The position numbers and the translations under genes are program-made. Below are positions 1-2,707 of a stretch of 32,170 nt of DNA, piece by piece. Every line of letters begins with the position of its first letter. The stretch's first letter is position 1. This DNA is from Sphaerochaetaceae bacterium (GTDB taxonomy: Bacteria > Spirochaetota > Spirochaetia > Sphaerochaetales > Sphaerochaetaceae). The stretch covers positions 1 to 32,170 of the forward strand of contig JAQVSP010000007.1 in assembly GCA_028700425.1 (NCBI GenBank). Direction: 5' to 3'. The notes under the pieces are model-generated. The model was not told where the DNA came from. It searched no databases and saw nothing but the letters and a program-made list of their open reading frames with translations.

Positions 1-1868
1 ATCTGAATCTGAGTGTCGACGCGGCTTACTACTACCTTAGAGGCCTTGAGGACATAGGTGGACTCGCTTGCATCAACGCTGTAGATCAAGACAAGGCTGA
101 TTATTGGGATGTCCTGCCTGAAGAGGCTGTCGAATACCTCGATGCGCTGCTTGTAGAGGGCATTCTCGGCTTCGTTGCCTGTGCGCGGCAGATCGAAGCC
201 TGTTACCGTCTTGTAGCCAAGGAACAGGGAGAAATCAAAGGAGCCCTCAGTTGCCGAAAGCTTCTTCACAGAGGTGACCTTCACATGCCAGCCCTTTCGC
301 GCTTCATCGTAGGCGTCGAACTCCAGGTTCAGCTCACCATAGAGAGAGTTGTCCCTGTATTCCTTTGCTCCGATGGCGATGCTCTGGTAGTAGACATCGG
401 TGTAAAGGCTGTATAGTGCAAGCCTGAAAGCCTGGTCAAGCTCCTTCTTCTTTTCAGCCTTGCTGCTCTCTGCCTGGATCTTCAGCGCCTCGATCTGGGC
501 TTCCCTTGCAGCCTTGGCTGCTGGAGATGGGGAGCCATTCTCCAGCTCCTCGGGGCCGTAGGAGGCAAAGTTGATCTGCATTATTGCATCGGTTGTCGAC
601 CTGTCGGTCGCAGAGACAAAAGCCTTGTACTGGCTGTCATACTCCCCTTTCCTGGCCATCAGCGAAGCCTTGACAGCCTCAACGGCCTTGAGGTCCTCAT
701 CGGAGCCCTGGCTTTCATAGCCCTCCAGCTGTATGCGGGCGAAGTTGGACAGGACAGCATTGATGTAGGAGTCGATCTGGGCCTGGACCTCAGAATCTCT
801 TGCTCTCTTGGCTTGCTGCTCAGCAAGGCTCTTCTGGGACTGAACCTCTACCTGGGCTGCCAGCTCTATGGCCTGGCCCAGCTGCTCCTCTATCAGGGCC
901 AGCGAGAGCTGAGCCTCCTGGAGCATCCTTGTCTCGGCAAAGGTGGCTATCTTATAGGACTTGGGCGTATACTGCTCGATGATGGCCATTACTGCAGCCT
1001 TCTCCTCTGTCCACTTGTTCACCATGGCCTCGGCTACCTCATTGCTCATGAAGTAGTAGTCGCCATCGCCTTGGGCTATCCTAAGCTCTCCATCTCCAGA
1101 AAGGCCGCTGTATCGCGTCTCAATGGAGGCAAGTATCGATGCAACTGGCGTCATGACCAGCGAGAACTCATCCTTTATAAGGACAGACAGGATAGAGGAC
1201 TTGTCCTTGTCTCTTTCGAAGGTCGAGGCATAGTCCTTGAAGCAATATACATGGTTGCAGTTCGAGGCTTCCACAGCGGCCTTCTCAGCGGCCTTGTACT
1301 CAGCTGTTCCTTCAAGGTCTCTCTTGAGCTTGAGGATTATGCGGTTGATGTAAGCCTCCATAGCTCCCTCCTCCTCGCTGAGAGAGGCTGCAGGGCTTGA
1401 GCTGTCCGAGGCTGCCGAAGGCTCAGTGGAAGGCTCATCGTAGTAGTCTGCAAAGGCATCAAGGGCAACGATAGACCGAGGATTGGTTATCTTGGCAAGT
1501 ATGGAGTTGAGGCTGTACGGATCCCTTCCGTCTATGGCGGACAGCAGGATGTCTGTCTCAAGGCGCTGCACAAAGCCAGTGAAGAAGAAGAAAACCAAGG
1601 CATCAGGATTTGCATCAAGATAGATGGAGAAATCATCCAGCTCGCTCTTGAGTGCCTGGCTGTCAAGGTTGATGAGCTCCGTGACCTCAAATCCTGAAGC
1701 CTGAAGGGCCTTGCTTATCATCGAGGTGTCTGTCATGACATCGGTAAGCGGATGATCCTCATAGCTTCTGTTTCCAATGACCAATGCGACTCTATTCTCA
1801 GAGGCCTCTGCATACGCAGAGGCCATGATGCATAGAATAAGCAATGAAAACACGAGAAACTTCTTCAC
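1..1868 (-). CDS. Secreted caspase-fold (peptidase C14-like) protein with both catalytic residues replaced; 3' end outside window
   Basis: The frame stays open from a GTG at 1868 to the window edge (622 codons), so the C-terminus is missing. Residues 1-20 form a signal peptide (KK, hydrophobic core, cleavage near AYA-EA), so the protein is exported. Residues 26-145 follow the caspase-like p20 pattern: ALVIGNRSYEDHPL, then a GFEV turn, then a hydrophobic strand. In active family members that strand ends in GHG, and a later strand ends in LDAC. Here the first reads FFFFTGFVQ (94-101) and the second LDAFADYY (136-143), so the catalytic His and Cys positions both hold Phe. A Ser/Glu-rich linker (146-168) follows, then a long Ala/Glu/Gln-rich region, probably coiled coil (about 275-350 and 430-470), and a C-terminal part I do not recognise. 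I infer a non-proteolytic binding or scaffold protein in the periplasm. The start is supported by a promoter directly upstream. Fold call fairly confident; role unknown. Confidence 0.75.
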   Translation of the reverse strand, partial: MKKFLVFSLLILCIMASAYAEASENRVALVIGNRSYEDHPLTDVMTDTSMISKALQASGFEVTELINLDSQALKSELDDFSIYLDANPDALVFFFFTGFVQRLETDILLSAIDGRDPYSLNSILAKITNPRSIVALDAFADYYDEPSTEPSAASDSSSPAASLSEEEGAMEAYINRIILKLKRDLEGTAEYKAAEKAAVEASNCNHVYCFKDYASTFERDKDKSSILSVLIKDEFSLVMTPVASILASIETRYSGLSGDGELRIAQGDGDYYFMSNEVAEAMVNKWTEEKAAVMAIIEQYTPKSYKIATFAETRMLQEAQLSLALIEEQLGQAIELAAQVEVQSQKSLAEQQAKRARDSEVQAQIDSYINAVLSNFARIQLEGYESQGSDEDLKAVEAVKASLMARKGEYDSQYKAFVSATDRSTTDAIMQINFASYGPEELENGSPSPAAKAAREAQIEALKIQAESSKAEKKKELDQAFRLALYSLYTDVYYQSIAIGAKEYRDNSLYGELNLEFDAYDEARKGWHVKVTSVKKLSATEGSFDFSLFLGYKTVTGFDLPRTGNEAENALYKQRIEVFDSLFRQDIPIISLVLIYSVDASESTYVLKASKVVVSRVDTQIQ

Positions 1869-2084: not shown

Positions 2085-2625
2085 ATGATTGATATTCGAG
2101 AGATGGAAGAGGCGGAGCTGAAAGAGGCCATTCAAATAAAGGCTGGATGCTGAGCCAAGGAGCTTGTCGGGGTTTCAGATGAGGCTATAGATGAGCAAAA
2201 ACAAGTGAAGTTCTGCTCAAGATGAAGGCAGGAGGAAGAGATGGACAAGGACGTTCGCATCCTGCTAGGCGCCTTTGAGAACGGGATTCTGCTGGGCTGC
2301 GCCTTTGCAAGCCTGGCTGAGAAATCCGACATAGCTGAAAATGCAATTGAGCTCACCGGACTGTGTGTCCCTCAAGGTACATAGAGGCAGGAAGATCTCG
2401 CTTAGGCTGCTGCTTTGCGTCTTCGAGCGCTTTGAGAGGCGGGGAATGAAGCAGCCTGCTGCCTGCAACCATCACCTGGCTTTTTCGCACAGTCTCTACC
2501 GCAAGTTCAGTGCCACTGTGCTTAGGCAGGATAGACAGATGGACGGCAAGATGCTGGTTGAAGCATTTACCGCTGACATGAGCATGATGAAGGCTCTCCT
2601 TCAGGAATCCCTGGGACAGGCTTGA
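2085..2625 (+). pseudogene. Decayed GNAT-family N-acetyltransferase
   Basis: A start ATG at 2085 is preceded by a good ribosome binding site (GGAGAGG, 2074-2080). The reading begins MIDIREMEEAELKEAI, which resembles a GNAT N-terminus, then hits a TGA after 22 codons. The same frame continues with plausible protein to a second TGA near 2232. A further piece from 2241 reads MDKDVRILLGAFENGILLG and IELTGLCV, the GNAT beta-strand 4 region. It then shifts frame near 2375 into HRGRKISLRLL, which matches the R/QxxGxG/A acetyl-CoA loop region in position, and runs to a TGA at 2625. At least two stops and one or two frameshifts break about 180 codons. The tail (LYRKFSATVL, TADMSMMKALL) still looks protein-like, so the decay may be recent. 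The family call rests on pattern only. Confidence 0.6.
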
Positions 2626-2679
2626 AAGGCAAAGGAAATAGAGGTTGCCATCAAGACCCAGGAATCAGGCGCACAGTCT

Positions 2680-2707
2680 GTAACAAATTCCCATAATGTG
2701 TTTTAAT
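2680..2707 (+). promoter_or_regulatory. Promoter of the ABC-F gene, probably leaderless
   Basis: A -35-like GTAACA (2680-2685) and a -10-like TTTAAT (2702-2707) are 16 bases apart. The -10 ends seven bases before the ATG at 2715, and no Shine-Dalgarno sequence lies between. The -35 match is only four of six. Confidence 0.4.

Follow-up and report, generated by a model that had tools for sequence, protein, structure and literature searches.

The locus considered here raises the question of what role may be left for a presumably exported caspase-like protein in which both catalytic residues have been replaced by phenylalanine. The gene lies at one end of the window, that is, of the whole 32,170-nucleotide stretch that was analysed, which is contig C116 of a Sphaerochaetaceae metagenome-assembled genome (G000; 210 contigs, 2.1 Mb). 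Its frame is free of stop codons up to the contig end (Table 1). An earlier note on this DNA had described a long intact frame, and this description is borne out, as the 622 residues in the window are encoded without a stop or frameshift and every segment of the gene shows native codon usage. The N-terminus (MKKFLVFSLLILCIMASAYA, with the presumed cut before E) fits a signal peptide, as judged by eye rather than by a predictor, and related architectures likewise start with signal peptides, in agreement with what had been proposed; these features suggest that the protein is exported. The promoter claimed for the gene did not hold up, because matches are at chance level (one 9-of-12 match on the minus strand, or two counting both strands, against 0.9 expected), and the putative -10 box is only about 6 bases ahead of the GTG. 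Upstream, between the caspase gene and an ABC-F gene, there is a GNAT acetyltransferase-like frame (window 2085-2700, plus strand) that appears, from its translation by eye, to be disrupted by multiple stops and changes of frame.

Table 1. Features of the pseudo-orthocaspase gene, with positions in the window and residues of the encoded protein.
Feature	Residues	Positions	Strand	Basis or remark
Pseudo-orthocaspase gene		3..1868	-	GTG start at 1868; 622 aa in window; open at contig end
Signal-peptide-like N-terminus	1-20	1809..1868	-	Cut between AYA and E, by eye; AlphaFold helix 2-19
Caspase p20 domain (predicted fold)	24-142	1443..1799	-	Pfam, PDB match, AlphaFold, fold comparison
Asp47, one of two acidic S1-pocket Asp of p20, by alignment	47	1728..1730	-	Kept
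Phe99 codon TTT at catalytic His position	99	1572..1574	-	Gapless alignment, homologue profile
Asp137 (DxC motif), second acidic S1-pocket Asp of p20	137	1458..1460	-	Kept
Phe139 codon TTT at catalytic Cys position	139	1452..1454	-	Gapless alignment, homologue profile
Inserted Ser/Glu-rich and helical linker replacing short post-Cys loop	143-205	1254..1442	-	Alignment, prediction
Putative, strongly diverged p10-like half	206-274	1047..1253	-	Position and predicted strand-helix-helix order only
Long helical, coiled-coil-like stretch	276-440	549..1043	-	AlphaFold helices 276-300, 310-387, 390-434
Spirochaete 'C-module' (name coined here; no Pfam match)	441-619	12..548	-	Relatives

Profile matches and the predicted structure confirm that the N-terminal part has the orthocaspase/Peptidase_C14 fold. 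The sole Pfam match is Peptidase_C14 (residues 26-105, E 1.2e-9, above the curated cut-off), the best PDB sequence match in phmmer is MALT1 (E 1.2e-6), and a homologue profile matches MALT1 at 8e-25 over a region spanning p20 and p10. AlphaFold2 predicts p20 with a pLDDT of about 95, with low confidence past it apart from the helices. The top Foldseek matches of the predicted model are MALT1 and caspases, against which the predicted p20 reaches VIA-align Z scores of about 15-16. In addition, the p20 core residues R26, A28, L29, G32, N33, Y36, D47, G98, and D137 are kept. Structure prediction, which the earlier note had named as a check, thus agrees with the p20 pattern that it had seen in residues 26-145. 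By contrast, the end that it had set at about residue 145 probably does not stand, since a putative, strongly diverged p10-like stretch follows.

The catalytic positions were located by gapless alignment with the proteins of two relatives, G145 and G009, in which FTGFV of the window protein stands against YSGHG/YAGHG at the His site and LDAF against LDAC at the Cys site. An ungapped alignment that also includes the G132 protein places Phe99 in the His column and Phe139 in the Cys column, while phmmer against MALT1 alone moves the His region by one residue. In the profile alignment, all 172 rows carry Gly at the Gly98 column and all 172 carry His at the Phe99 column. An initial peptide-pattern scan of the genome contigs found no relative. 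Profile searches gathered 162 distinct domains, and both columns are filled in 151 distinct homologues, each of which has His and Cys; 50 of these come from profile searches in spirochaetes and the other 101 from a genome contig scan whose patterns accepted either Cys or Phe at the Cys position, with duplicates removed. The Phe/Phe form is present in only one genome. As every homologue is His/Cys, Phe/Phe would be the derived state. Further active-site consensus residues have been lost as well (N46, G100, P111, the p10 acidic column, which is R219 here, and Q261/P263). The sequence therefore lacks the His/Cys dyad of an active peptidase of this group and, because both residues are Phe, it is near certain that the protein is unable to use the caspase mechanism.

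The replacement of both catalytic residues had been proposed with the proviso that homologues might reveal a local sequence error. Such an error, with His and Cys in the true gene, could be suspected in a metagenome assembly that mixes strains and in which a contig end breaks the gene. It is nevertheless very improbable, as a change from His to Phe (TTT) takes at least two base changes, codon usage is normal, and numerous substitutions, all in frame and without any frameshift, lie near both sites and across p10. Sequence error was rejected as the cause on account of these many in-frame changes, and for the same reason the change is considered to be divergence. Even harder to credit is a non-canonical hydrolase that would act through other residues, for instance, the SNCNHVYC cluster with which the p10-like stretch begins. 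This cluster does place Cys and His near the expected p10 strand, but no relative has such residues replacing the dyad, which relatives keep, and the active-site loops are lost.

Divergence from the two relatives varies strongly along the protein. The active-site loops are 22% and 15% identical to those of G145 and G009, respectively, against 70% between these two. For the rest of p20, the values are 34% and 33% (46% between the relatives); for p10, 19% and 13% (54%); and for the C-module, 26% and 27% (36%). In effect, identity has dropped by the same proportion in the p20 core and the C-module, and by far more in the catalytic loops and p10. This is the pattern that a fold kept without catalysis should produce, as read from one sequence, which allows no selection test. 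The p10-like residues 206-274 were placed by collinear alignment with the G145 and G009 proteins, and, with the predicted strand-helix-helix order, the structural match reaches as far as residue 234 or so. The stretch escapes a general p10 profile, and a two-sequence profile of the closest relatives detects it only with the adjoining coil; that it is a diverged p10 remnant is suggested, although not proven, by its position and predicted order.

These values also bear on the main rival explanation, according to which the caspase part is a decaying relic with no role of its own, while the coil, the C-module, and the C-terminal domains are still used. Constraint has been lost in the active-site loops, in p10, and in the post-Cys linker, a broken GNAT-like frame adjoins the gene, and the C-module occurs elsewhere with unrelated N-terminal domains. 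Set against this, the rest of p20 is conserved as much as the C-module relative to the relatives, its core residues are kept, and the frame is intact with normal codon usage. Thus, a vestigial domain is somewhat unlikely, if a serious contender. The earlier claim that the gene shows no decay is to be divided accordingly: constraint on the p20 core was kept, but the active-site loops (15-22% identity) and p10 (13-19%) have lost it, so that part of the caspase domain is no longer under constraint.

The acidic S1 pocket offers one indication of what the retained fold might do. The Asp47 column holds D in 150 of 156 homologues and is supported by the MALT1 alignment, and the Asp137 column holds D in all 167. 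The MALT1 equivalents, which likewise hold a basic P1 residue, are presumably Asp365 and Asp462. According to Klemencic et al. (2019; PMC6426788), the two residues of TbMC2 p20 with which Asp47 and Asp137 align are acidic and hold the basic P1 residue. In the window protein, Arg219 occupies the p10 acidic column, which is D or E in 150 of 157 homologues, in a region where the alignment is weak; since this third acidic position is Arg, the pocket may have lost its fit for basic residues. A pocket for a basic peptide is possible but not assured.

A search of 139 genomes of the family and 393 of the phylum found the complete order of caspase domain, coil, and C-module only in G000, G009, and G145. 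The G009 protein (1613 aa) and the G145 protein (Sphaerochaeta sp. MAG STF1_7, 1225 aa), both from Sphaerochaetaceae, have an identical order across all 622 residues. Unlike the window protein, they have retained both the His/Cys dyad and the active-site loops, and they carry extra repeats, RCC1 in G145 and Ig-like in G009. These two nearest relatives, from the same GTDB family, look active by sequence, which makes the states before and after the loss directly comparable. In the host genome, a 1094-aa protein (L179, contig C178, 3052-6336, minus strand) has Ig-like repeats that weakly resemble those at the C-terminus of the G009 caspase protein.

C-modules without a caspase domain are common in a Treponemataceae-like spirochaete family (f24) and are also present in other Sphaerochaetaceae. 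Like the window protein, these proteins combine a coil with the C-module; they differ, by eye, in having an LPP20-like or CsgG/TolB-like N-terminus and a beta-barrel-like or FISUMP/FGE-like C-terminus. Such varied ends were seen at L070, L073, L074, L076, L077, L080, L082, L084, and L086. The C-module proteins of other spirochaetes appear as a modular, largely unannotated family of envelope proteins to which no Pfam model matched, and this family can help to interpret many spirochaete envelope proteins that lack annotation. A tentative and rather doubtful extension would be that N-terminal domains are exchangeable on a shared coil and C-module, and that the protease of one lineage became a pure binding receptor, with two Phe for a dyad and its fold under selection.

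The end of the gene, which is missing from the window, is probably carried by contig C203 of the same genome. The first 48 bases of C203 are 88% identical (42/48) to window positions 1-48, the end of the gene, and orientation and reading frame agree; three codons differ silently and one changes Ile to Ala. From there, the frame runs 296 aa further to a stop and carries CHB_HEX_C_1 (E 2e-15), together with an Lcl_C match just under the cut-off (34.7 against 34.9 bits) of the same type as the Lcl_C at the C-terminus of the G145 protein. The join is inferred from an inexact overlap, which fits a strain mixture also visible in the pair of contigs C36 and C169. One LPP20 lipoprotein gene cluster is present in nearly identical form on both contigs (L184 and L185), and, therefore, the genome bin appears to mix at least two strains.

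In G009, DUF4384 and LPP20-type genes follow the caspase gene, a grouping that was not seen next to the window gene. An adjoining LPP20/DUF4384 partner, as in G009 and G132, was considered and rejected for the present gene, as a convergent ribokinase follows it on C203 instead. A search of the host genome with the G009 query found no DUF4384-type homologue. No operon or partner gene was seen at the window locus and on C203, where the broken GNAT-like frame lies upstream and the ribokinase downstream.

Distinct from these proteins is a group of caspase-like lipoproteins of about 330 aa in the same GTDB family, of which 73 are His/Cys and one is Lys/Ala. The latter (L198, contig C53 of G075, 847-1797, minus strand), the sole one among 74 resolved, is a second pseudo-caspase of the family, of lipoprotein type. 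In several Sphaerochaetaceae, these lipoprotein genes adjoin, by eye, a UvrB-like gene (L030, L034, L037, L042, and L050). The pseudo-caspase could be a decoy that controls or competes with the active lipoproteins of its own cell, by analogy with c-FLIP, which acts so on caspase-8. Contigs C127 and C123 of the host genome do each encode a Peptidase_C14 lipoprotein with His/Cys. However, they belong to a different, distant subfamily (one scores 14 bits against the close-family profile), and their genes are unlinked and found in most family genomes, in which the window protein has no counterpart. Furthermore, the p10 half, through which caspases usually dimerize, has eroded more than p20. A decoy is thus improbable.

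The reading favored here, with a probability of roughly 55%, is that the pseudo-orthocaspase domain has retained a non-cleaving binding or assembly role within a modular spirochaete envelope protein. The gene product would be an exported envelope protein with a signal peptide, p20, a p10 remnant, a coiled coil, and the C-module, and its C-terminal end would probably consist of CHB_HEX_C_1 and a surface-type Lcl_C-like domain, encoded on C203. In this lineage, a protease domain with a His/Cys dyad would have turned into a pseudo-orthocaspase whose p20 fold was retained because it still served for binding or assembly, with the coil and the C-module tying it to the envelope. We infer binding by p20 from these features, and the bound partner may, more speculatively, be a basic (Arg/Lys) peptide held near the kept Asp47/Asp137 pair. 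The binding or scaffold role in the envelope that had been suggested earlier remains plausible and gains from the C-module and the Lcl_C-like end. Against it, the loops and p10 have diverged most, as a vestigial domain would also show.

Compared with known systems, the window protein shares its predicted fold, its Pfam match, and the core motif RxALVIGN...Y...L...D with orthocaspases (PF00656) and with the human MALT1 paracaspase; unlike these, it has no His/Cys dyad, and its p10 is barely recognizable. Asplund-Samuelsson et al. (2012; PMC3501461) report an intact dyad for 84% of bacterial homologues and for 89% of those from spirochaetes. Klemencic et al. (PMC6426788) count 858 pseudo-orthocaspases among 9,994 orthocaspases, with 90% of them in Alphaproteobacteria and Cyanobacteria and few elsewhere. 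Like those described there, the window protein has the p20 fold, as judged from sequence and model, with both dyad residues replaced and the two p20 pocket Asp kept, and it is a pseudo-orthocaspase by this definition. Such proteins are thus already known, and the Phe/Phe dyad, the eroded active-site loops, and the architecture make this one a variant. Dyads named there include YS, YN, YA, FS, YY, YG, QC, and HA, a list that does not contain Phe/Phe. The same paper describes the surroundings of the catalytic site as the most conserved part of pseudo-orthocaspases, whereas in the window protein no part of p20 is less conserved.
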